Shown here: positions 17,361 through 33,114 of the stretch, piece after piece
How the letters are laid out: each line of letters begins with the position of its first letter
Position numbering within the stretch: the first letter of the stretch is position 1
NCBI GenBank assembly: GCA_023665275.1
Contig: JAMPEF010000001.1
Coordinates: 638,482 to 702,481, forward strand
From: Alistipes senegalensis
GTDB lineage: Bacteria; Bacillota; Clostridia; Oscillospirales; Ruminococcaceae
Length of the DNA: 64,000 nt
Direction of reading: 5' to 3'
Made by a program: the position numbers and the translations under genes
The notes under the pieces: generated by a model
What the model was told of the DNA's origin: nothing
Database searches by the model: none
What the model saw: the letters and a program-made list of their open reading frames with translations, nothing else

Positions 17361-17975
17361 ATGCTTTATGCTATTGAAAAATTTCTTGTAAGACTTGTAA
17401 TGACTATAGCTTTTAATCTGCATTTTGAGGGAAGGGAAAATATCCCGAAAGATACAACAGTAATATTTGCCTCCAATCACCGCACCAATGCTGACCCACC
17501 ATTTGTAGGCTGTGCATTACGTGGTAAACACGCTTTTATGGCTAAGGAAGAATTATTCAGAAATAAATTTTTCGGCGCTCTGATACGGAGTGCGGGAGCT
17601 TTTCCGGTATCTCGTGGAAAGGGCGATACAGCAGTTATTGATACGGCGGTTGATGCTCTCAACAATAACAGAAGTCTGATGATTTTTCCGGAGGGTACAC
17701 GTTCAAAAGATGGTAAAGTACACAAAGGTCATTCAGGGGCGGCGCTTATTGCAGCACGTTCCGGAAAACCTATAATTCCGGTTGGAATAGTTTTCGGTGA
17801 AAAACTTACATTCCGTACAAGAGTTACTGTAAAATACGGTAATCCGATAAATCCGGCTGATTATTGTGAAATATCCGATACACCTAATCCACGTCAGATT
17901 GTTAAACTTAAAAATCGTTATATGGCTGATATAAAATTACTCGCTGAGGGTGAACCGGAGGCGGAAAATGAATAA
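17361..17975 (+). CDS. plsC: 1-acyl-sn-glycerol-3-phosphate acyltransferase
   Basis: I start it at ATG 17361 (204 aa), preceded by AGGTG; the frame is open 36 nt further up but that would run into cmk. A hydrophobic N-terminus is followed by the acyltransferase motifs: SNHRTNADPP (the HxxxxD form here is NHRTNAD), the FRNKFFGALIRSAGAFPVSR segment, and FPEGTRSKDGK. It makes phosphatidic acid from lysophosphatidic acid at the inner membrane face. Its end overlaps the next start by 8 nt. Confidence 0.92.
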   Translation: MLYAIEKFLVRLVMTIAFNLHFEGRENIPKDTTVIFASNHRTNADPPFVGCALRGKHAFMAKEELFRNKFFGALIRSAGAFPVSRGKGDTAVIDTAVDALNNNRSLMIFPEGTRSKDGKVHKGHSGAALIAARSGKPIIPVGIVFGEKLTFRTRVTVKYGNPINPADYCEISDTPNPRQIVKLKNRYMADIKLLAEGEPEAENE

Positions 17976-19902
17976 AATTACTGTTGCAAAATCGGCTGGT
18001 TTCTGTTTCGGGGTTGACAGAGCCGTGAAAATGGTGTATAATGAACTTGACAAGGGTGCTAAGGTGGCTACTTTCGGAGCTATCATACACAATCAGGACG
18101 TTGTAAACGATATGACCGCACGGGGTGTGAGAATTGTTAATTCTGTTGACGAACTCAAGCCGGATGAAACTGTTGTTATACGTTCACACGGTGTCGGCAG
18201 GGAAGTATATGAACAAATCAGGAAAAAAGGAAACAGACTTCTTGATGCCACCTGTCCGTTTGTTTCCAAAATTCATAAAATAGTTGCAGAAAAAACAAAA
18301 GAGGGTTACTTTATTCTTATTGCCGGTAATTCCGAACACCCTGAAGTGCAAGGAATTGTTGGTCATTGTGACGAAAATTACTTCGTTTTTAAAGATAATT
18401 TTGAACTAAATCACTTTTTTGAAAATCTGGACGAAAATTTTAAAAAAACTATTGCTTTTGTCGCTCAAACGACGTATAATATATTAGTATGGGAAAAGTG
18501 TTTAAAGGAGATTCCGGCAGATATCCCCGTTGTTATATCCGATACAATCTGCAATGCTACAGAAGCAAGGCAGACAGATGCCCGTGAACTTGCTATGAAG
18601 TCAGATATAATGATTGTTGTCGGTGGTAAGCACAGTTCAAACACTGTCAAGCTATATGATGTTTGCAGTAAGTATTGCAGAACATATCATATAGAAAACT
18701 CGGCGGAACTGGAAACTTTAAATATTCCCGCTGCTGAAAATATCGGCATTACTGCCGGAGCGTCAACTCCGGCTTATATAATTAAGGAGGTACTAACCAA
18801 AATGGCAGAAATTGAAAAGGAAACTATTCAGGAAGAGGAAAACTTTCAGGAATTACTTGACAAGTCATTCAAAAAAATACATACAGGAGAAAAAGTCAAG
18901 GCTATTGTTGAGTCTGTAAACAGCGCAGAAGTTGTTGTTTCACTCGGCACTAAGCACACAGGTTATGTGAAACTTGAAGACCTTACAGACGACCTTACAA
19001 AAAAACCTGAGGAAATTGTAAGCGTCGGCGAGGAAATCGAACTTGTTGTTATTAAGGTGAATGACAATGAAGGTACTGTTTCTCTTTCCAAGAAGAAGGT
19101 TGATGAACAGGCTGGCTATGAAAAGATTGTCAAGGCTAAGGAAGAGGGAACTATACTTGAAGGTGTTATACAGCACGTTGTAAATAGAGGTGTTACACTT
19201 AACGTTCACGGCGTGAGAGTGTTTATTCCGGCATCACATACAGGTCTTCCGAGAGGTGCAGAACTTGACCAGCTTCTTAAGAAAAAAGTTGAATTTATGA
19301 TTATTGAAGTTACTGACGGCAGAAAGAGAGCAGTAGGCTCTATCAAGGCTGTACAGAACGCTCAGAAGGAAGAAGCTAAGGCTAAATTCTGGGAATCTAC
19401 AAGCATTGGCGATACTTTCACAGGTAAGGTTAAATCACTTACAAACTTCGGTGCATTCGTTGACCTTGGCGGTATAGACGGAATGGTTCATATTTCCGAA
19501 CTTTCTTGGAAGAGACTTAAACACCCGAGTGAAGTTGTAAGTCTTGGTGATACTCTTGAAGTATACATCAAAGACCTTGATAAAGAATCCGGCAGAATTT
19601 CACTTGGCTACAAGAAGTCTGAAGAAAATCCGTGGGAAGTCTTCATGAATAACTACAAAGTCGGCGACGTTGTAAATGCTACTATCGTTTCTATCACTGC
19701 TTACGGTGCGTTTGCACAGATTATTGACGGTGTAGACGGTCTTATTCATATCTCAAAAATTGCAGACAGAAAGGTTGAAAATGTAAAGGACGTTCTTTCT
19801 GTAGGCGATGAAGTAACTGTCAAGATTACAAGCATTGAAGAAGACAGAAAGAGAGTAAGCATTTCTATGCGTGACGTTGCGGAAACTGAAGACGCTGAAT
19901 AA
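17968..19902 (+). CDS. ispH: IspH - ribosomal protein S1 fusion
   Basis: A 644-aa fusion, started at ATG 17968 because GGAGG (17957-17961) lies 6 nt before it. Residues 1-275 are IspH, the iron-sulfur enzyme of the last MEP-pathway step: Cys13 (AGFCFGV), Cys96 (DATCPFV) and Cys195 (SDTICNAT) are the cluster ligands, and HPEVQGIVGH carries the catalytic Glu region. Residues 290-644 hold four S1 RNA-binding repeats, the third and fourth being the best (TNFGAFVDLGGIDGMVHISEL; TAYGAFAQIIDGVDGLIHIS). This fusion is known in Clostridia. An AAGGAGG at 18784-18790 precedes an in-frame ATG at 18802 (Met279), exactly at the domain junction, so an S1-only product is possible. Confidence 0.93.
   Translation: MNKITVAKSAGFCFGVDRAVKMVYNELDKGAKVATFGAIIHNQDVVNDMTARGVRIVNSVDELKPDETVVIRSHGVGREVYEQIRKKGNRLLDATCPFVSKIHKIVAEKTKEGYFILIAGNSEHPEVQGIVGHCDENYFVFKDNFELNHFFENLDENFKKTIAFVAQTTYNILVWEKCLKEIPADIPVVISDTICNATEARQTDARELAMKSDIMIVVGGKHSSNTVKLYDVCSKYCRTYHIENSAELETLNIPAAENIGITAGASTPAYIIKEVLTKMAEIEKETIQEEENFQELLDKSFKKIHTGEKVKAIVESVNSAEVVVSLGTKHTGYVKLEDLTDDLTKKPEEIVSVGEEIELVVIKVNDNEGTVSLSKKKVDEQAGYEKIVKAKEEGTILEGVIQHVVNRGVTLNVHGVRVFIPASHTGLPRGAELDQLLKKKVEFMIIEVTDGRKRAVGSIKAVQNAQKEEAKAKFWESTSIGDTFTGKVKSLTNFGAFVDLGGIDGMVHISELSWKRLKHPSEVVSLGDTLEVYIKDLDKESGRISLGYKKSEENPWEVFMNNYKVGDVVNATIVSITAYGAFAQIIDGVDGLIHISKIADRKVENVKDVLSVGDEVTVKITSIEEDRKRVSISMRDVAETEDAE
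18784..18804 (+). promoter_or_regulatory. Possible internal translation start for a free S1 protein
   Basis: AAGGAGG (18784-18790) and an in-frame ATG (18802) separated by 11 nt lie at the boundary between the IspH and S1 parts. The spacing is long but usable. Confidence 0.4.
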
Positions 19903-20480: not shown

Positions 20481-22901
20481 ATGATTTTCAAGAAAATTAC
20501 AGCTATGGCATCTGCTTTAGCGCTTTCAGCAGGAATGATGACTTGTCTTCCGGCAGGGAAGAACGTTACGGCAAATGCAGCAGTTGACTATGATTATGCG
20601 GAGGCACTCCAGAAATCAATGTTTTTCTATGAAGTGCAACAGGCTGGCATTCTTCCGGAATGGAACTCTGTTTCATGGCGTTCTGATACTATGATAAAAG
20701 AGGACGGCACACCCTCAGATATTATTGATGGTGGTTGGTTCGACGCCGGCGACCATCTGAAATTTACTCTCACTAATGCTTATACTGCTTCTGTTCTTTC
20801 ATGGGGACTTATTGAATACAAAGACGCTGTAAAGAAAGCTGGCTTATATGACTTGTATCTCAGAAATCTCAAGTGGGGGCTTGATTATGTTGCTGCCTGT
20901 GATTTAGGTGATAAGGTTATAGGTACTATCGGTGAAGACGGTTTCGACCATGTATGGTATGGTAGCCCTGAAGTTTATATGCGGAAGTTCAATCTCAAGA
21001 ACGATACCGAAGAAAGACCCTATGATACTATAACAAACTGTACTACAGTTGCGGAAATGGCGGCGGCTATGGCGGGCGGATATATCGTTTTCAAGGACGA
21101 AGACCCCGAAACTGCTAAAAGCTATCTCAAACACGCTGAAAGTCTTTTCAAACTCGCAAACGACGTATGGGCTGAAAAAGGTGCTGATGCCAATGAAGAC
21201 GAAGGCATTCAGGGAAAATATTATCATACTATAAACAATCAGGGTACGGATAACTTCATTGATGAGCTTATGTATGCTGCTAACTGGATGTATATGGCTA
21301 CCGGTGACCAGTCATACCTTGACAAGTGCGAAAAAGAATATATTCCGCTGTTCCCTAAGGAAAGTCAGTCTACAGATAAAAAATTTACATGGGGTTTCTG
21401 CTGGGACGATACAACACAGGCGGCGGCACTTCTCTATGCTATCAATACCGGCAAGCAGGAATGGATTGACCATGTTTCCCATCATCTTGATTATATGATT
21501 GGTGGCTACAACGGCAAAAAGCCTGTAGGTGGCTGGACTCCTGATGGCATGACTGTCGTTGACGGTGCAGGCTGGGGAACTCTCAGATATACGGAAAATG
21601 CGGCTTGGCTTGCAAAGCTTTCCTGCGACACTATCTTCAAGGACAATGCACAGCTTTCTGAAAAGTATAATACGTGGGCAAAGAAAATGATGGATTATGC
21701 TTTTGGTGATAATGATTTAGGTCTTTGCTATGTTGTCGGCATGGGCGAAAAGAATCCTTTGAATATCCACCACAGAGGAGCTTCCGGTATACATGACGAC
21801 CACTGGAATGAACTCGGTACGCTTGAACCGGAAGAAGATGACGGCTGGCAGAGAGAATATGCACACGTTCTTTACGGTGCTCTTGAGGGTGGTCCTAATC
21901 AAGATGGTACATTCAAAGATGATAACAGCTCATACACTAATACAGAGGTAGCTATTGACTATAACGCCGGATATACTGCTGCATTGTGTGCATTCCTTGA
22001 AGATTACGGCGGTGAAAAACTTGCTGATTTCCCACAGGCTGAAACTCCTAAGTGGGCAGAATGGGAAATATCGGCAAGTCTTAATGGAAAGGGCGACAGC
22101 TATACTGAAATCAAGGCATGGGCTATGAATCACACTGCATGGCCTGCAAGAGTAGCAAAAAATATCAAGTACAGATATTATTTTGACGTTTCAGAAGTTC
22201 TTGAAGCTGGTCTGTCTGTTGATGATATTACTGTAAAAATCGGTTCACAGCAGTATCAGGAGGGACAACAGGGACACGCTACAACTACAGGCAAACCAAT
22301 AAAATATGATGGTGACCCCTCCGGCAACACTTATTATGCTGAAATTGTATTTGAGGACGGCAGAGCTATTATGCCTACTGGTCAGAGCGAACACAGGGAT
22401 GAAGTTCAGTTCAGAATTTCAATTCCTGATGCTATTGACGGCAAATCCACAAAAGGTGCATGGAATCCGGCAAATGACTGGTCATATGAAGGTGTTGAAG
22501 ATGCTCCGATGAAAATGGAACTTGAGGCGGCACTTAATGACCATATCACTATGTATGTTGATGATATTCTTGTATGGGGTACTGAACCCGACGGCACAAA
22601 ACCTGATGTTACAAATCCTACCGGAGCAACTACTAAGCCGTCTACTTCCGGCGGTGGCAACGGAGTACTTCTCGGCGACGCTAACGAAGATGGTAAGGTA
22701 TCTATTGCTGATGCAGTATTGATAATGCAGGCTCTTTCAAATCCGGCTGACTATCAGCTTACCGAACAGGGTGCAAAAAATGCCGATGTTGCTAATATCG
22801 GAGATGGCGTAACTACTATTGACGCTCTTGCTATACAGTGCCTTGATATTAATCTTATCGATGGTTTCCCGTTTGATATGAGCATTCTCGAAAAATTATA
22901 A
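20481..22901 (+). CDS. Cellulosomal GH9-CBM3c endoglucanase
   Basis: An 806-aa exported enzyme. The signal peptide ends near Ala34. The GH9 catalytic domain follows directly (residues 35-500), with D88/D91 in GGWFDAGDH, the HHRGASG motif, and E489 in NTEVAIDYNAGY as catalytic acid. A CBM3c-like module (about 515-685, starting WAEWEISASLNGKGDSYTEIKAWAMNHTAWPAR) should feed the chain into the active-site cleft and make the enzyme processive. A short linker leads to a dockerin (about 731-800; GDANEDGKVSIADAVLIMQ, GDGVTTIDALAIQ). It cuts beta-1,4-glucan in cellulose. It has its own promoter and terminator. Confidence 0.95.
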   Translation: MIFKKITAMASALALSAGMMTCLPAGKNVTANAAVDYDYAEALQKSMFFYEVQQAGILPEWNSVSWRSDTMIKEDGTPSDIIDGGWFDAGDHLKFTLTNAYTASVLSWGLIEYKDAVKKAGLYDLYLRNLKWGLDYVAACDLGDKVIGTIGEDGFDHVWYGSPEVYMRKFNLKNDTEERPYDTITNCTTVAEMAAAMAGGYIVFKDEDPETAKSYLKHAESLFKLANDVWAEKGADANEDEGIQGKYYHTINNQGTDNFIDELMYAANWMYMATGDQSYLDKCEKEYIPLFPKESQSTDKKFTWGFCWDDTTQAAALLYAINTGKQEWIDHVSHHLDYMIGGYNGKKPVGGWTPDGMTVVDGAGWGTLRYTENAAWLAKLSCDTIFKDNAQLSEKYNTWAKKMMDYAFGDNDLGLCYVVGMGEKNPLNIHHRGASGIHDDHWNELGTLEPEEDDGWQREYAHVLYGALEGGPNQDGTFKDDNSSYTNTEVAIDYNAGYTAALCAFLEDYGGEKLADFPQAETPKWAEWEISASLNGKGDSYTEIKAWAMNHTAWPARVAKNIKYRYYFDVSEVLEAGLSVDDITVKIGSQQYQEGQQGHATTTGKPIKYDGDPSGNTYYAEIVFEDGRAIMPTGQSEHRDEVQFRISIPDAIDGKSTKGAWNPANDWSYEGVEDAPMKMELEAALNDHITMYVDDILVWGTEPDGTKPDVTNPTGATTKPSTSGGGNGVLLGDANEDGKVSIADAVLIMQALSNPADYQLTEQGAKNADVANIGDGVTTIDALAIQCLDINLIDGFPFDMSILEKL

Positions 22902-22931
22902 TAAAATATAACTTATTCATATAAATTTCAT

Positions 22932-22962
22932 ATAAGGGAGTTTATCTCTCTTATGATTTTTC
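22932..22962 (+). terminator. Intrinsic terminator after the first GH9 gene
   Basis: ATAAGGGAG (22932-22940) pairs with CTCTCTTAT (22946-22954), 9 bp with one wobble and a TTTAT loop, followed by GATTTTTCT. Confidence 0.8.
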
Positions 22963-23037
22963 TGAATATTGTGAAATGTGTACAAAAATACCAAGGCAAT
23001 ATTAGGAGAATCAACGAATTTCCGAAAAGCTATTTAC

Positions 23038-23056
23038 TTTTTTTACGGGATATAAT
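23038..23056 (+). promoter_or_regulatory. Probable promoter of the second GH9 gene, with TTTTTTTACGG element
   Basis: TATAAT at 23051-23056 is preceded by TTTTTTTACGG (23038-23048). The same 11 nt lies just before the -10 box of the pectate lyase gene (29057-29067). No good -35 box is placed 16-18 nt upstream, so an activator or alternative sigma contact is possible. Confidence 0.5.
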
Positions 23057-23064
23057 ATAATAAG

Positions 23065-23160
23065 ATTGGTAAGTAAAAAGGTTTGGTGCAAGTCCTTACG
23101 GACAACCGCTTGCCAATAATTCAAATATAATCGTGGTGTTTGCACTGGCACTGCGTTATA
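23065..23160 (+). ncRNA. Candidate structured 5' leader RNA with a kissing-loop interaction, before GH9 gene 2
   Basis: The leader starts about 8 nt after the -10 box. P1 pairs ATTGGTAAG (23065-23073) with CTTGCCAAT (23109-23117), 9 bp with one wobble. Inside, P2 is GGTT/AACC (23080-23083 with 23104-23107) and P3 is GTCC/GGAC (23092-23095 with 23100-23103), closed by a TTAC loop; an 8-nt bulge TGGTGCAA (23084-23091) lies between them. A second hairpin (23126-23160, about 12 bp with a bulged T) exposes a 10-nt loop TTTGCACTGG. The bulge and the loop are complementary over 8 positions (six Watson-Crick GTGCAA/TTGCAC plus two G-T). The order of elements recalls the kissing loop of cobalamin riboswitches, but no B12 box is present. 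The family is unknown to me. Confidence 0.6.
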
Positions 23161-23194
23161 ATTAAACCTATATTTTTAAGGGAGGGCACTTAAA

Positions 23195-26100
23195 ATGCAT
23201 AAGACATTTGGTAAGAAAATTGCCGGCGGACTTATGGCAGCAGCTATGGCAGCTTCAGCAGCAACTGCTGTAATCGCTCCTATGGGAGCATTTGCAGGTG
23301 ACCAGCTCGGACAGTCTACTTTCGATGAAGGTATTGGTCTTCCGTGGCATACTTGCGAAACTAACCCCGCTAAGCAGACATTTGAAATCGCAGATGGTAC
23401 ATACAACGTAACACTCAAAGAAATTCATGGTCCTGAATCAAGATGGGACTTACAGCTCCGTCACAGAGGACTCAAGATTGAATCCGGTCACACATACAAG
23501 GTTCACTGGGAAGTAGAAGCTTCCAATGCCGGTCAGCTTTATACAAAGATTGGTGACTACGGCGGAAAAAATGAAGTATGGCACAATAACATGAGCGACG
23601 GTCAGTTTGACCAGACATGGGACTGCGTTACAATCAATGCAGGTAAAAACTCCTTTGATGCTACATTCACAGCAAATACTACTATTGAAGTTGCTGAATG
23701 GGCATTCCACTATGGTGGTAAGGGTGAACACCAGCCTGTAGACTGTTTCCCACAGGATACAGTTCTTAAGTTCGATAACCTTACACTTGAAGATACAACA
23801 AGTGATGCTAACGATTTCGACAAGACAAACGAATTCGGTGTAATCAGACCTAAGTCAAATGTTCGTCTTAATCAGGTTGGTTATTATCCGAATCTCGCTA
23901 AGAAAGCATCTTATGTAACAGATGCTGATTCACCACTTGAATTTGAAATCCGTGATTCTTCAGGTAAAGCTGTTTATACTGGTACATCAAAAGTATTTGG
24001 TGCTGACCCGAACTCCGGTACAGGTAAGACAGAACAGGTTGATGGCGGTTTAACAAAATACAAGGACAGCGGTGCTAATGTACATATCCTTGACTTCTCT
24101 GATTTCACAACTCCTGGTGTATACAAAATCTTTGTAAAGGATACAACAGGCGTATCAGGCACACAGTCAGGCTTGAAAGAAGCCGCTTATGATACAACAA
24201 TGGACGGCGACAAGGTTATGTGGCATAACTGGGTAACTGACGTTGATTATGTAATGAATGAAAGCCATTCATTCCGCATTGATGAAAATATCTACAGCGA
24301 TGACCTCGTAAGAGATTCTATCAGTTACTTCTATCAGAACCGTTCAGGTGTTTCGATTGAGGCACAGTATATCAAGAACGGCGATACAAGCACACTCGCA
24401 CACAGCGAATACGGTCACTCACCTGATAAGGCATATGTTCAGTCCAAGTGGCAGAAGTCATACTCTTCTGAATTCGACGGCGATAAAACATATCAAATCG
24501 ACGTAACAGGCGGTTGGTACGATGCCGGTGACCACGGTAAATATGTTGTTAACGGTGGTATCTCTGTATGGACTCTTCAGAATGCTTATGAAATGTCCAA
24601 GAAGAACGGCACAGACGCTATCTGGGCTGATAATGGTGCAGTTCTTGTTCCTGAAAACAGCAACGGTGCTCCTAACATTCTTGACGAAGCAAGAGTTGAA
24701 CTTGACTTTATGCTTGCAATGATGGTTGATTCCAAAGACCCATACTGGGGCAAGTACGAAGGCATGGTTTACCACAAGATGCACGACCACAAGTGGACTG
24801 GTCTTGCTATCCACGCTTGGAAGTACGAAGGTTTTGACGGCTGTGAACGTATTGTAAAGCCACCAACGTTTGCCGCTACTTATAACCTCGCTGCTACTGC
24901 TGCACAGGCTGCACGTCTCTGGGAAGGCATTGACGATGCATACGCTAAGAAGTGTCTTGAGGCTGCTAAGAAGGCTTATGATGCTGCTAACAAGAATTTC
25001 TATGCATATCCAGGCGAATCAGAAAATACTAACCCGACTGCTCTTTATGCTCCTCTTGACCAGGCTATTGGTGGTGGTGCTTATGGTGATACTTACGTTG
25101 AAGACGATAAGTACTGGGCAGCTTGTGAACTCTATGCTACAACAGGTGACGACACATACTACAATGACCTTAAGGCATATTCTAACCCGAATGACACCAC
25201 TGGCAACGATAAGGCATTCAGCCTGACAACTAACCTCGGTGGCGGTGAAAACAATGGTTCATTCAGTTCATTCAACTGGGGCTGTACTTCCGGTCTTGGT
25301 ACACTTTCACTCTACCTCAGCGATAAGCTCAGTGATGCTGACAGAGCAACTGTAGAGGGTTCTATCGCACAGGCTGGTGATGCATACCTTGCACAGATGA
25401 CAACAGAAGGTATGGGTATTCCTTACAAGCCAGCTACTTTCGAGGATGGAGTAAATATCGGTGCTGGTATCAAGGTAACCGGTTATGAGTGGGGTTCAAA
25501 CTCATTCGTTATCAATAATGCTATTGTTATGGCATACGCTTACGACTCAACCAAGGACGTTAAGTACATGAACGGTGCTGCTGAAGCTATGGACTATATC
25601 TTCGGACGTAACGGTCTTGACTTCTCATACGTTTCAGGTTACGGCGATACAGAAATGGGAACAACTCTCCAGTGGCCACACCACAGATTCTGGTGTAACG
25701 GCGTTGACCCGACATTCCCGAAGGTACCTGCTGGCGTAATGTCAGGTGGTCCTGGTGCTGGTATGCAAGACCCATACATCGGCGGTCTCGGCTATAAGAG
25801 AGGTACACTTGCTAACCAAAAGTGCTATGTTGATAACGCTGAAGCATGGTCTGTAAATGAAATCACAATCAACTGGAACTCACCACTTGTATGGATTTCT
25901 TCTTACATGAATGCTGAAGCTGCTAAGGCTGACGGCAAACAGGATCCTAATACAAAGCCTACAACAAGTCAGAACACTACAGGCAACAATGATGATATCC
26001 TTTGGGGCGACGCTAACGTTGACGGTAAAGTAAATGTTGCTGATGCTGTTCTTATCATGCAGGCACTCAGCAACCCGAATGAATTTACTATTTCTGAAAA

Positions 26101-26245
26101 AGGTCAGCTCAACGGTGACGTTGTTGACAATGGCACAAGCGGTATCACAACTATGGATGCTCTTGCTATCCAGTGCATCGATATCGGTCTTGTTGACCAG
26201 AAAGACCTTCCTATCACAAGTGATGACCTCACTAAATTAGGTTGA
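23195..26245 (+). CDS. Cellulosomal CBM4-Ig-GH9 cellulase (CbhA/CelK-like architecture)
   Basis: A 1016-aa exported enzyme. The signal peptide ends near AFA-G34. A CBM4-like module covers about 35-205 (LGQSTFDEGIGLPWHT ... DTVLKFDNLTLE), a CelD-type Ig-like module 220-325 (SNVRLNQVGYYPNLAKKA), and the GH9 domain 330-910. D443/D446 lie in GGWYDAGDHGKY and the catalytic E889 in SVNEITINWNSPLVW. A Thr/Asn linker leads to a dockerin (about 937-1005). This order is that of processive cellobiohydrolase-like GH9 enzymes, which complement the CBM3c endoglucanase just upstream. Ribosome site GGGAGGG. The long leader contains the candidate structured RNA. Confidence 0.95.
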   Translation: MHKTFGKKIAGGLMAAAMAASAATAVIAPMGAFAGDQLGQSTFDEGIGLPWHTCETNPAKQTFEIADGTYNVTLKEIHGPESRWDLQLRHRGLKIESGHTYKVHWEVEASNAGQLYTKIGDYGGKNEVWHNNMSDGQFDQTWDCVTINAGKNSFDATFTANTTIEVAEWAFHYGGKGEHQPVDCFPQDTVLKFDNLTLEDTTSDANDFDKTNEFGVIRPKSNVRLNQVGYYPNLAKKASYVTDADSPLEFEIRDSSGKAVYTGTSKVFGADPNSGTGKTEQVDGGLTKYKDSGANVHILDFSDFTTPGVYKIFVKDTTGVSGTQSGLKEAAYDTTMDGDKVMWHNWVTDVDYVMNESHSFRIDENIYSDDLVRDSISYFYQNRSGVSIEAQYIKNGDTSTLAHSEYGHSPDKAYVQSKWQKSYSSEFDGDKTYQIDVTGGWYDAGDHGKYVVNGGISVWTLQNAYEMSKKNGTDAIWADNGAVLVPENSNGAPNILDEARVELDFMLAMMVDSKDPYWGKYEGMVYHKMHDHKWTGLAIHAWKYEGFDGCERIVKPPTFAATYNLAATAAQAARLWEGIDDAYAKKCLEAAKKAYDAANKNFYAYPGESENTNPTALYAPLDQAIGGGAYGDTYVEDDKYWAACELYATTGDDTYYNDLKAYSNPNDTTGNDKAFSLTTNLGGGENNGSFSSFNWGCTSGLGTLSLYLSDKLSDADRATVEGSIAQAGDAYLAQMTTEGMGIPYKPATFEDGVNIGAGIKVTGYEWGSNSFVINNAIVMAYAYDSTKDVKYMNGAAEAMDYIFGRNGLDFSYVSGYGDTEMGTTLQWPHHRFWCNGVDPTFPKVPAGVMSGGPGAGMQDPYIGGLGYKRGTLANQKCYVDNAEAWSVNEITINWNSPLVWISSYMNAEAAKADGKQDPNTKPTTSQNTTGNNDDILWGDANVDGKVNVADAVLIMQALSNPNEFTISEKGQLNGDVVDNGTSGITTMDALAIQCIDIGLVDQKDLPITSDDLTKLG

Positions 26246-29154: not shown

Positions 29155-32100
29155 ATGAACTCTAAATTTTTCAGAAAGCATGCCGCTATTGCAGCAGCTG
29201 CTGTAATGTCACTTTCATGTATGGCATCAGTAGTAAACAGTCCGGCATATATACCAACAGCTACAACAACTATCACAGCATTTGCCGCTGACAGCGTAAA
29301 CATCACAAGTTCTGTAGGCTATGCAGAGGGTATGTATGTTACATGGTCATCTGTTTCAGGTGCTGAGGGTTACAACGTTTATGTTGACGGCGTTCAGATT
29401 GATTCAATGCTTATCAGACAGTATGCCAGCTATATGCGAGCCGATGCAGTAGGCATTAAAGCAGGAAGTCATACAATGAAAGTAGTTCCTGTTATCAGCG
29501 GTAAGGAAGATACTTCAAAGGCTGCTGAAGCAAAAGCTGATGTTTATGCACACGACAGGAGCGGTTATGCTTTTGCAGATGGTCATATGCCGGGTGCTTA
29601 CAAGGCAGACGGTACACTTAAAGACAATGCAATTGTTGTTTACGTAACAAACGAAAACAAGGATACTGTTACAGTTGCACTCAATGCAGAGGGTAAAGGT
29701 AATGTTGACTGTGTAGGTTTTCAGAATATTGTTACAGCTTACAAGAAAGGCAAGGAAACACGTCCGATTTCTATAAGACTTATCGGAAATATCGAAGACC
29801 CCGCTAATATGCCTAAGGGTGATATTATGGTTGATACTGTAACATCAGCAGGCATGACAATTGAGGGTATCGGCAATGATGCTACTGCTAACGGCTGGGG
29901 TATCGTTCTTAAAAACTGTGTTGACGTTGAAGTAAGAAACGTTGGTACAATGAACTGCAACAGTGATGAGGGCGATAATATCGGACTCCAGCAAGGCGAT
30001 TCATATTGTTGGGTTCATAACTGTGACTTCTTCTATGGCGATGCCGGTTCAGACAAAGACCAGGTAAAAGGCGATGGCGCACTTGATACAAAGAAATCCC
30101 ACCATATAACACATTCATATAACCATTTCTATGATAACGGCAAGTGTAATCTTCAGGGTGCAAATGCAAGTGATACATCAAACTACATTACATATCACCA
30201 CAACTGGTATGACCACTCAGATTCACGTCACCCACGTGTAAGAAAAGCAACCGTTCATGTTTACAACAACTACTATGACGGCAATGCTAAATATGGTATT
30301 GGTTCTACAACTGATTCTGATATATTCGCTGAAAATAACTACTTCCGTAACTGTAGCAAACCTATGATGATTGCAAATCAGGGTACAGACGCAGCCGGTG
30401 AAGGTACATTCTCCGGTGAAGTAGGTGGTATGATTAAAGCATATGGCAATGTATTTGATGGTGGTACTTATGTGCCATACAGTAAAAATAATACACAGTT
30501 TGATTTCTATGACGCAAAGTCAAGAGACGAAAAAGTGCCATCATCTGTAAAGACTGTAGACGGTGCAGGATATAATAATTTTGATACTGAAAGTGGTTTC
30601 TATAGCTATAAAGTTGATAAGGCTGAAGACATTCCTTCAATTGTAACTTCAAAGGCTGGACGTGTAGACGGTGGTGACTTCAAATGGCAGTTTGACAATT
30701 CAGTTGATGATGCAAGCTATGATGTAAATCAGGCTCTTAAATCTGCACTTGTTGCATATAAAGACTCAATAGTTGCGATCGGCAGCGGCTTCACAAATAC
30801 AAGCTCAACATCACCTACAAATACAACTACAACAGCATCTAAATCAAATACACAGAATACAACAACTACAACATCAAAGCCTAATACATCAACTGTAGCT
30901 CCGACTGGTATAAAGGTTGAGTATTCAGGTGGCTGGAATGAAATGGCATATATGGGTATATCCGGCATAAAGGACGCTGATGTTACAGGCGTATCATATT
31001 CCGGTGCGTCAAGCGGTTCACTCAAAGGTGAGGACCTTGAGTATCTCGTAAGAGACGTTGATGGTGGTGTACGTGTTGACCTCCTCGGACTTAAAGCAGG
31101 TACATATACAATTACTGTTACTACTTCAAAGGGTGAAGTTAAGCAAAGTGGTATTGTAGTAGGTCAGCAAGACAGGTCAGGTTATGCACATTATAACTAC
31201 TCCGACGGTGTAGGTGCATATAACGATAACGGCGAACTTAAGGCAAATGCTAAAGTTATCTATGTTACAGAAGAAAATAAAAATACAGTTTCCGTTACAT
31301 CAAAGGACGGCACAACTGTTAAAGGTATAGGTAATATCCTTAACTCCGTTGCACAAGACGTTGGCGGTGGTAAAAACGCTAACGGCGGTACAGCTAACAC
31401 CAATCAGGATATTATCAAGAAACTTGCCAAGGACGGCACACCACTTGTTATCAGAATTGTAGGAAACGTTTCAACTCCGGAGGGTGTAACAGTATTCGAC
31501 TCCGTAGACATGGGCGGTTCAAAGGGTGATAACGGTGGTATGGCTAGAATGCGTTCAGGTAAGAATATTACAATTGAGGGTGTCGGTGCAGACGCTACAG
31601 TAAACGGCTGGGGCTTCCACTTTATGTCCGAATCATCTGCTCCGGAACTGGGCAAGAGTTTTGAAGTAAGAAATATTGCATTCAGAAACGTTCCTGAAGA
31701 CTGTATTGGTATGGAAGGTGTACAGGAAGGCTCTTCACTTACAGCTTCCGTTGAAAGATGCTGGATTCATAACTGTGAATTCTATGTACCAAAGATAGCT
31801 AATCCGGCAGAATCAGACAAGGCAGAAGGTGATGGTGCTTGTGACTTCAAACGTGGTCAGTATTTCACAAACAGCTATTGTTATTATGAAGGCTATCACA
31901 AGACAAACCTTGTAGGTGCTTCAGACAGCAATCTTCAGTTTAATATATCATTCCACCATAACTACTGGAAAAACTGTGAATCAAGAGGACCTCTTGCACG
32001 TCAGGCAAATATCCACCTTTACAACAACATATTTGACGGACAGTCAAGTTACTGTGCAAGTGCAAGAGCTAACTCTTTCCTCTTCTCTGAATATAACGCT

Positions 32101-33114
32101 TACGTCAACGAATGTAAAGACCCTGTACTTCTTAAGTCCGGTGGTGTTTTCAAGAGCTATAATGATGCTTATATCAGTCTGAAGAAAGGTGCAAAGAACG
32201 AGGGCACAATTGTAACAGACAAGGGCCAGACTATCACAAGTTCCTGCCAGAAAGCAAACTTTGATACAGATTCAAAACTTTCATATATTCCGTCCGGCAA
32301 TTACAAGCTTATTGAGGCTACAGGTGAGGCACTCTATACAGCACTTACTGCTGAATTTGAGGCATACGGTGGTTGCATGGACAATACAAAAATCAGCGGT
32401 AGCGGAAGCACTACTACAACTCCACAGCAGACAACAACAACTTCCTCTACAGCAAAGCCAAGTGGTTCTACTACCACAACTACAACTAACGGCGGTACAG
32501 TTGTTGCCGGTGGTTACGTTCATGACTTTACTGCTAACGGCACAAAGAGTGATTTTTATACAATTACCGGTAACCTCTCTACATCTAAGGGAACTGTAAA
32601 TTATAATGGTCTCACACTTAAACAGTGTCTCAAGATGGAAAGCGCAACAAATATTACATTCAATGCACCATCAGCAGGCAAGATTACGCTTGTATTCGTT
32701 GAACCGGCTGCAACTATAAAGGTTGATGGTACTAAATATACATCTGCTGGTGACGGCACAATAACTGTTGACCTCAAGGCAGGCGCACATACAATTACTA
32801 AGGCTGATACTGCTAACCTCTTCTATATGGTTTACAGTGAAGAAGGCAGCAATATAGGCGCAACCACTACTCAGAATCCCGGTAAAGATATAATCTATGG
32901 TGATGCAAACGGCGACGGCAGAGTAAGTGTTTCAGATGCTGTACTTATAATGCAGTGTCTCTCTAACCCGAATGAATTCCAGATGAATGCAGAACAGGCA
33001 GACGCTGCTGACGTTTACAGCAGAGGCGATGGCGTTACAACTATGGACGCTCTTGCAATCCAGAAGATTGATATCGGTCTTATTGATACACTTCCGGAAT
33101 CTTACATGGAATAA
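29155..33114 (+). CDS. Cellulosomal double-PL1 pectate lyase with dockerin
   Basis: A 1319-aa exported enzyme. The signal peptide is followed by an FnIII-like module (about 48-125). PL1 domain A (about 135-480) shows DGALDTKKSHHITHSYNHF and catalytic Arg region R358-HPR-VR. After a Thr/Asn linker comes a small module, then PL1 domain B (about 670-1085), with EGDGACDFKRGQ and R944-GPLA-R949. A short beta-rich module (about 1117-1235; HDFTANGTKSDFYTITGNLS) often found at the end of pectate lyases precedes the dockerin (about 1247-1315). PL1 enzymes cleave polygalacturonate by beta-elimination with calcium. Two non-identical lyase domains suggest different pectin preferences. It has its own promoter and terminator. 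Confidence 0.93.
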   Translation: MNSKFFRKHAAIAAAAVMSLSCMASVVNSPAYIPTATTTITAFAADSVNITSSVGYAEGMYVTWSSVSGAEGYNVYVDGVQIDSMLIRQYASYMRADAVGIKAGSHTMKVVPVISGKEDTSKAAEAKADVYAHDRSGYAFADGHMPGAYKADGTLKDNAIVVYVTNENKDTVTVALNAEGKGNVDCVGFQNIVTAYKKGKETRPISIRLIGNIEDPANMPKGDIMVDTVTSAGMTIEGIGNDATANGWGIVLKNCVDVEVRNVGTMNCNSDEGDNIGLQQGDSYCWVHNCDFFYGDAGSDKDQVKGDGALDTKKSHHITHSYNHFYDNGKCNLQGANASDTSNYITYHHNWYDHSDSRHPRVRKATVHVYNNYYDGNAKYGIGSTTDSDIFAENNYFRNCSKPMMIANQGTDAAGEGTFSGEVGGMIKAYGNVFDGGTYVPYSKNNTQFDFYDAKSRDEKVPSSVKTVDGAGYNNFDTESGFYSYKVDKAEDIPSIVTSKAGRVDGGDFKWQFDNSVDDASYDVNQALKSALVAYKDSIVAIGSGFTNTSSTSPTNTTTTASKSNTQNTTTTTSKPNTSTVAPTGIKVEYSGGWNEMAYMGISGIKDADVTGVSYSGASSGSLKGEDLEYLVRDVDGGVRVDLLGLKAGTYTITVTTSKGEVKQSGIVVGQQDRSGYAHYNYSDGVGAYNDNGELKANAKVIYVTEENKNTVSVTSKDGTTVKGIGNILNSVAQDVGGGKNANGGTANTNQDIIKKLAKDGTPLVIRIVGNVSTPEGVTVFDSVDMGGSKGDNGGMARMRSGKNITIEGVGADATVNGWGFHFMSESSAPELGKSFEVRNIAFRNVPEDCIGMEGVQEGSSLTASVERCWIHNCEFYVPKIANPAESDKAEGDGACDFKRGQYFTNSYCYYEGYHKTNLVGASDSNLQFNISFHHNYWKNCESRGPLARQANIHLYNNIFDGQSSYCASARANSFLFSEYNAYVNECKDPVLLKSGGVFKSYNDAYISLKKGAKNEGTIVTDKGQTITSSCQKANFDTDSKLSYIPSGNYKLIEATGEALYTALTAEFEAYGGCMDNTKISGSGSTTTTPQQTTTTSSTAKPSGSTTTTTTNGGTVVAGGYVHDFTANGTKSDFYTITGNLSTSKGTVNYNGLTLKQCLKMESATNITFNAPSAGKITLVFVEPAATIKVDGTKYTSAGDGTITVDLKAGAHTITKADTANLFYMVYSEEGSNIGATTTQNPGKDIIYGDANGDGRVSVSDAVLIMQCLSNPNEFQMNAEQADAADVYSRGDGVTTMDALAIQKIDIGLIDTLPESYME

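Follow-up and report, generated by a model that had tools for sequence, protein, structure and literature searches.

What is encoded between the promoter and the start codon of a ruminococcal GH9 cellulase gene, and how might it act on that gene? Ruminococci rank among the main degraders of cellulose in the rumen and gut, so that an element controlling one of their GH9 cellulases post-transcriptionally would offer a handle on how fibre is digested. The stretch of DNA analysed here (the window, 64,000 nt) contains a leader at 23065-23160 that spans the distance from the promoter to 34 nt 5' of the GH9 start codon. A preliminary description took this leader for a small cis-regulatory RNA, perhaps a riboswitch. 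The first part of that reading has held, as a small conserved cis RNA does precede a GH9 dockerin enzyme, while the riboswitch part has not. That the RNA tunes a cellulosomal enzyme, as was also suggested, is plausible. The explanation that we favor, with a probability of roughly 0.4, is a post-transcriptional 5' leader acting in cis and dedicated to one gene, in which the loop of the downstream hairpin (P3) binds a trans-acting factor and a kissing contact with the 5' domain is a genus-specific addition.

Organization of the leader and its surroundings

From the promoter to the target gene, all features lie on the forward strand. The promoter (23033-23061) consists of a -35 element TTTACT at 23033-23038, a 17-nt spacer, and a -10 element TATAAT at 23056-23061, and the same spacer length occurs in 95 of the 97 leaders (out of 100) with a scorable -35 match. 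In the minimum free energy (MFE) fold, the closing stem P1 pairs 23065-23074 with 23108-23117 and has 10 bp, the nine that had been described plus one. It encloses a weakly supported stem P1b (23080-23083 with 23104-23107), an 8-nt bulge UGGUGCAA (23084-23091) with the proposed kiss strand GUGC at 23086-23089, and the hairpin P2 (23092-23103), formed by 23092-23095 and 23100-23103. The second hairpin, P3 (23126-23160), has a bulged U23131 and an 8-nt loop UUGCACUG at 23140-23147 closed by a U-G pair; the MFE fold gives its loop as UUUGCACUGG at 23139-23148. UGCAC in this loop (23141-23145) is the proposed kiss partner of GUGCA at 23086-23090, and the complementarity extends to six Watson-Crick pairs between GUGCAA (23086-23091) and UUGCAC (23140-23145). 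The inner stems, the bulge, the second hairpin, and the six-pair complementarity all agree with what had been read from the letters, as does the position of the element, with the -10 box ending at 23061 and the ATG at 23195 standing 34 nt 3' of P3.

An A/U-rich linker (23161-23179) separates P3 from the Shine-Dalgarno (SD) sequence GGGAGGG (23180-23186), which has no conserved pairing with the leader. The target gene (23195-26245) encodes a protein with the Pfam arrangement CBM4_9 - CelD_N - GH9 and, by sequence, a C-terminal dockerin that matches 34 other places in the same genome. The neighborhood holds further genes of interest. Upstream, 20481-22901 encodes a second GH9 enzyme (GH9-CBM3, with a dockerin by sequence) followed by a terminator-like hairpin at 22931-22955; 17950-19902 encodes LytB (IspH) fused to four S1 domains; and 29155-33114 encodes a 1319-residue protein with a dockerin-like end that by eye resembles a secreted pectate lyase. 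The promoter region (about 23000-23038) is itself strongly kept across 97 scored leaders, with ATTA, CGAA.TT....AAA.CTA, and TTTACT followed by the 17-nt spacer. This conserved sequence is possibly an operator or an UP element, and a comparison by eye found similar promoter regions in genus g28.

The energy of the fold is unremarkable by itself (z -1.62, with 14 of 200 shuffled sequences as good or better), so the case for the leader rests on its conservation.

Conservation of the leader and of its target

A BLAST search with a 141-nt leader query (E<=1) gave matches in 106 of the 125 genomes of the genus, many of them short or partial and the strong ones upstream of GH9. A covariance model (R1) trained on 53 leaders gives strong hits, at E about 1e-5 or better, in 107 of the 125, a number that includes the 53 training leaders; of the 68 genomes with completeness of 90% or more and contamination of 5% or less, 65 have a match at E<=10. 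The next gene is an orthologous GH9 (identity 34-100%) in 106 of the 107, the remaining one being cut by a contig end. As for the 18 genomes lacking a strong match, four (G017, G042, G103, G109) carry the gene at a contig edge, in two (G102, G110) the GH9 ortholog is present but GUGC and GCACUG are both gone from its leader, and in the remaining 12 the GH9 matches are all weaker or more distant, as judged from identities and coordinates. Under strict filters at E<=0.01, R1 found nothing outside the genus: all 8 hits in 396 family genomes and both hits in 394 genomes at the order level belong to the window's genus. The observation of the leader is thereby confirmed as real and far above chance.

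Within a genome the leader is as a rule found once. R1 has a single match in the window's own genome at E<=10, and at 21 further ORFs with a dockerin-like motif, one or more of which likewise encode GH9, no such leader was seen by eye; 10 of the 21 have TATAAT within 60 nt of the start codon. A P3-only model, whose training set includes P3 hairpins of this genus, places the GH9 leader first in the window's genome (E 3.8e-4, the next hit at E 0.27) and ranks the leader first in 11 of 12 genus genomes; the exception is G103, with its GH9 copy at a contig edge, where a hit in coding sequence takes the top place. Other candidate copies were rejected. Among 11 weaker P3-only hits, the one in G103 included, 10 fall in coding sequence on either strand and one (L332) lacks a real gene start, none being leader-like; four weaker BLAST hits in the window's own genome and 19 near matches to the pattern GGTGCAAGTCC, examined out of 48 besides the leader, showed no such structure by eye. 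Genome G071 alone has a diverged second copy (L154:6302-6398) before a tandem GH9 paralog, and another diverged leader (L175:95-173, minus strand) before an ORF cut at a contig end; both keep the P3 loop and miss the GUGC bulge.

Covariation of the stems

Two alignments were used for the genus. A1 contains 53 of 83 distinct leaders aligned with MAFFT and is not fitted to the structure, whereas A2 contains 100 of the 107 leaders fitted to R1, so that its counts lean toward the structure in a way that those of A1 do not. In A1, 85.4% of the cells of the structure, kiss included, are paired, and its covariation score was reached by none of 500 shuffles; the number of pair types does not separate the alignment from shuffles (100/500 reach it). 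In A2, 88.6% of cells are paired, 23 of 30 pairs show double changes, and again 0/500 shuffles reach the covariation score; pairing falls to 31.7-34.0% when partners are slid by one column. Mapped on a GH9 protein tree with 99 of the 100 leaders (one being cut by a contig end), coincident changes on a branch total 194, whereas the null distribution has a mean of 90 and a maximum of 115 in 1000 runs; 152 of the 194 preserve the pair.

The earlier proposal had named compensatory changes as the check to be made, and P1, P2, and P3 do covary, both in the alignments and on the protein tree. All nine modelled pairs of P1 change on both sides, with an excess of coincident changes on the tree (p<0.05) at seven of them. 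P2, with 85.7% of cells paired, has double changes at 4/4 pairs and p<0.05 at all four, and P3, with 97.8% of cells paired in A2, has p<0.05 at 6 of 13 pairs. P1b is paired in 64.4% of cells and none of its four pairs shows such an excess. The pairing of P1, P2, and P3 and the conservation of the leader are thus shown, and the compensatory changes in the stems together with the fixed place before the gene identify it as a structured cis-acting leader RNA.

These data also bear on a reading in which no RNA fold is needed and the inverted repeat of P3 is a protein-binding site in the DNA. Such an operator would account for a near-perfect inverted repeat adjoining a strongly conserved promoter. 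G-U pairs are frequent in P3, however, its arms change while the asymmetric center stays, and P1 and P2 covary, all of which make a DNA site hardly credible.

Search for an expression platform

No riboswitch expression platform was found in the leader. A terminator scan found no U-tract terminator 3' of P3 in the window, and inspection of relatives by eye found none either. The scan does flag P3 itself as terminator-like, but this is no more than an effect of its U-rich 3' strand, which makes up most of the tail UUAUAAUUAA; no U tract follows. A hairpin at the SD sequence (P4) was rejected (mean z of linker-SD folding -0.19 over 100 leaders), as was pairing of the leader with the SD (mean duplex z +0.46, 0/100 below -1.5). 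On average the leaders avoid the SD, and anti-SD-like words occur in 2 of 100. The window's own leader pairs with it somewhat better than shuffled sequences do (-11.6 against a mean of -9.3 kcal/mol), and the predicted openness of the SD averages only 0.40 over the 100 leaders and is 0.93 in the window. The alternative fold between CCTTA in the leader and TAAGG beside the ribosome site, suggested at first, does not survive comparison, as TAAGG precedes the SD in 3/100 leaders and is accompanied by CCTTA only in the window's. Pairing of the P3 loop with the dockerin-coding stretch was likewise rejected: CAGTGCA is present in the window's gene and in 0/15 relatives with a full gene. Neither a terminator nor a conserved sequestration of the SD was found.

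The original riboswitch idea fares poorly on these grounds, with one orthologous target, no U-tract terminator, no conserved SD pairing, and an unconserved alternative fold. In its strongest form it would be a small-molecule riboswitch of a new class, whose aptamer, when occupied by its ligand, adopts the kissed form and affects translation. In its favor are a compact architecture of two domains with a possible kiss between them and, following the kiss core, positions that stay constant though unpaired (in A1, column 108 is an invariant U and column 109 nearly always G). A new class would also have no match in Rfam, and the Rfam scan suggested at the outset indeed places the leader outside the catalogue: no Rfam 15 family passes its gathering cut-off in the window or in 20 related loci, and the six hits at E<=10 over 22900-23300 are all well under their cut-offs. 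Such a riboswitch would nevertheless serve in practice a single gene and would lack both a U-tract terminator and pairing to an SD that the leaders on average avoid; the CCTTA/TAAGG fold is peculiar to the window, and the kiss partner is missing from most leaders of other genera. We regard it as unlikely.

Much of the same evidence suits a quite different reading, that of a passive stabilizer, in which a helix at the very 5' end and a second hairpin block RNase and give a long-lived mRNA with no regulation at all. P1 begins a few nt 3' of the -10 box, and the absence of both conserved SD sequestration and a switching fold is what such a barrier would predict. In Ruminococcus flavefaciens 007, a GH9 dockerin enzyme is reported to be an abundant, major extracellular protein and to be less affected by growth substrate than GH48 (PMC3672088), which would fit a constitutive stabilizer if that GH9 were the ortholog of the present gene. 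A plain barrier, on the other hand, requires neither an invariant loop nor an invariant GUGC, and the loop is kept in three other genera on a stem that has been replaced. The passive reading is therefore somewhat unlikely, and dedicated control in which the loop has a function of its own is preferred.

The proposed kiss between bulge and loop

All 99 scored leaders contain GUGC in the 5' domain, and GCAC is found in every P3 loop (100/100); in the hundredth leader (L172), GUGC sits just upstream of the aligned stretch. The fifth pair of the kiss is A-U in 87 of 99 leaders and G-U in seven. The kiss had been singled out for a search for compensatory changes, and the answer is mixed: the complementarity is always present, but the core GUGC:GCAC never varies, so that covariation can neither support nor refute the pairing. 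The run of pairs averages 6.5 bp compared with 6.3 in shuffles (p 0.003, with relatedness not corrected), and position 6 by itself is not above shuffles (p 0.34). Losses of the partners are mixed as well. In G102 and G110 both have gone, in the two paralog leaders of G071 the bulge has gone and the loop stays, and in L213, from another genus, the bulge stays and the loop has gone.

The bulge has a second potential partner. GUGCA could pair either with UGCAC of the P3 loop or with the start region AUGCAC/AUGCAU, in which case P3 would be a decoy that frees the start codon. Were this true, the hairpin loop of the leader would serve as a decoy of the start codon in its own mRNA, although we consider it quite improbable. 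A variant is given a similarly low chance; in it, access to the cellulase start codon would depend on the occupation of P3 by a ligand or by a factor that binds the loop. The start region (23195-23203 in the window) reads AUGCA in 97 of 99 scored orthologs, complementary to GUGCA, and both exceptions (L098, L171) have GUGCU or GUGCG in its place; L213, without GCAC in its loop, yet keeps GUGC and AUGCAC. The AUGCA start is, however, still found in 10 of 12 leaders that have GUGC without GUGCA, and codon 2 is CAC in 76 of 96 genes, hardly above the usage of this codon for His in the same genes (1208/1667). Enrichment at codon 2 is thus not clear, and a constraint on it at the RNA level was rejected. 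Met-His also begins orthologs with no GUGC in the transcript (L291, L292, L224), and in g28 the loop persists mostly without an AUGCA start.

P3 in other genera

Beyond the genus, a hairpin at the same place in three other genera keeps the loop NUGYACUG on a different stem, and GUGC is mostly missing. In g28, 19 loci, part of the g28 matches, were taken as orthologs from their protein starts, and 17 of these have, immediately 5' of the SD, a hairpin whose loop still reads GCACUG; the exceptions are L308 (loop GCAUUG) and L310 (loop GCACAG). A hairpin of this type is missing from seven other g28 GH9 paralogs with upstream sequence. L214 (g65) and 3 of 4 g108 loci (loop GUACUGG) also carry it, and it was not found by eye in the examined loci of g35, g117, g6, g96, g27, g55, g103, g71, and g85. 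The loop stands 38-59 nt from the ATG in these non-genus leaders. Four g108 leaders (L225, L226, L228, L231) share an upstream GCACGGG, in or beside a small hairpin, along with the P3 loop GUACUGG (GUACCG in L226).

Sixteen of the A2 leaders and 15 from other genera were combined in a 24-nt hairpin alignment (A4). Its 31 chosen hairpins, from four genera, give a stem covariation score of 0.80 compared with 0.27 for shuffles (reached by 0/500) around a nearly constant loop. All eight stem pairs change on both sides across the four genera; this count does not separate the alignment from shuffles, 104 of 500 of which equal it. A4 omits four of 35 hairpins (L171, L039, L310, L312), three with less regular arms, which somewhat raises its paired percentage.

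Complementarity of the 5' domain to the loop is rare outside the genus. In 22 non-genus leaders, selected because they carry the loop or something close to it, it reaches p<0.05 in L221, L299, L310, and L214, with GUGC itself as the partner in L221 and L214, and the summed complementarity (p 0.03) is carried by these four. GUGC is missing in most g28 and g108 leaders that retain the loop. An apparent compensated kiss in L310, whose loop GCACAG faces CUGUG, was not counted because L316 has CUGUG opposite an unchanged loop. By this distribution P3 is older than the kiss, and the GUGC bulge is an addition that is fixed in the window's genus and also seen in two outside loci.

A model for the leader

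When a loop stays constant while its stems change, this usually marks it as being read by something else. That the P3 loop is steady while its stem changes therefore suggests that it is read in trans, and together with the strongly conserved two-part structure and the lack of an Rfam match, which give the leader the look of an undescribed control element, it leads us to the following model. The cellulase transcript would start with the terminal helix P1/P2, and P3 would form a second helix directly 5' of a ribosome site that is strong and lacks conserved sequestration. The 8-nt loop of P3, N-U-G-Y-A-C-U-G, would present a surface to be recognized, most likely by a trans-acting factor and probably by an RNA-binding protein. 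The GUGC bulge of the window's genus would kiss this loop and hold it in a compact pseudoknot or shield it. The outcome may be control of the lifetime or the translation of the mRNA for one enzyme. The whole mechanism, from the formation of the kiss and the binding of a factor by the loop to the regulatory outcome, is inferred, and the partner of the loop may be a protein, an RNA, or a ligand. One gene per genome is also few for a dedicated regulator, which speaks against the model, as do the weakness of P1b, the invariance of the kiss core, the absence of GUGC from most g28 and g108 leaders with the loop, and the low mean openness predicted for the SD. A protein bound by the P3 loop, if there is one, may be new, as the loop is kept over four genera and the stem is not. 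The element is well suited to testing, with one gene, a length of about 100 nt, a clear loop and bulge, and many natural variants.

Comparison with known systems

The leader is not described in the parts of the literature searched, and it may be listed without a name in the supplements of PMC8040213 or PMC11109978. Several known systems resemble it in part.

In cobalamin riboswitches (RF00174 and its relatives), the 5' domain makes a kissing contact with a hairpin near the ribosome site. The present leader is similar in having a kissing-type contact proposed between its 5' domain and a 3' hairpin, and the window shares the sequence GGUGCAAGUCC with them, as had been remarked. The likeness stops there, since GGUGCAAGUCC occurs in only 11 of 107 leaders and no cobalamin covariance model, with its B12-box core, matched in the window or in the 20 related loci; the lack of an Rfam match implies that this core is absent. 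Here GUGC also lies in a bulge and not in a hairpin loop, and the complementarity is invariant (99/99), with a core that does not vary.

Stabilizing 5' leaders with a 5'-terminal hairpin are found on the mRNAs of abundant exported proteins, as in aprE of Bacillus subtilis and ompA of Escherichia coli. The ruminococcal leader shares the terminal hairpin and, probably, the abundant exported product with them and differs in holding the sequence of a loop and a bulge constant over many species.

Closest in subject are the stem-loops of the cip-cel operon of Ruminiclostridium cellulolyticum, which are reported to determine how much of each subunit is made, relative to the others, from a single operon (PMC4423207, PMC10311766); stem-loops of the cip-cel type are placed in 3' UTRs in the related PMC8219983. 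On these accounts, both systems involve RNA hairpins that set, or in our case may set, the amounts of cellulosome parts, whereas the ruminococcal element is a leader at the 5' end, its loop is conserved, and the gene that it precedes has a promoter of its own.
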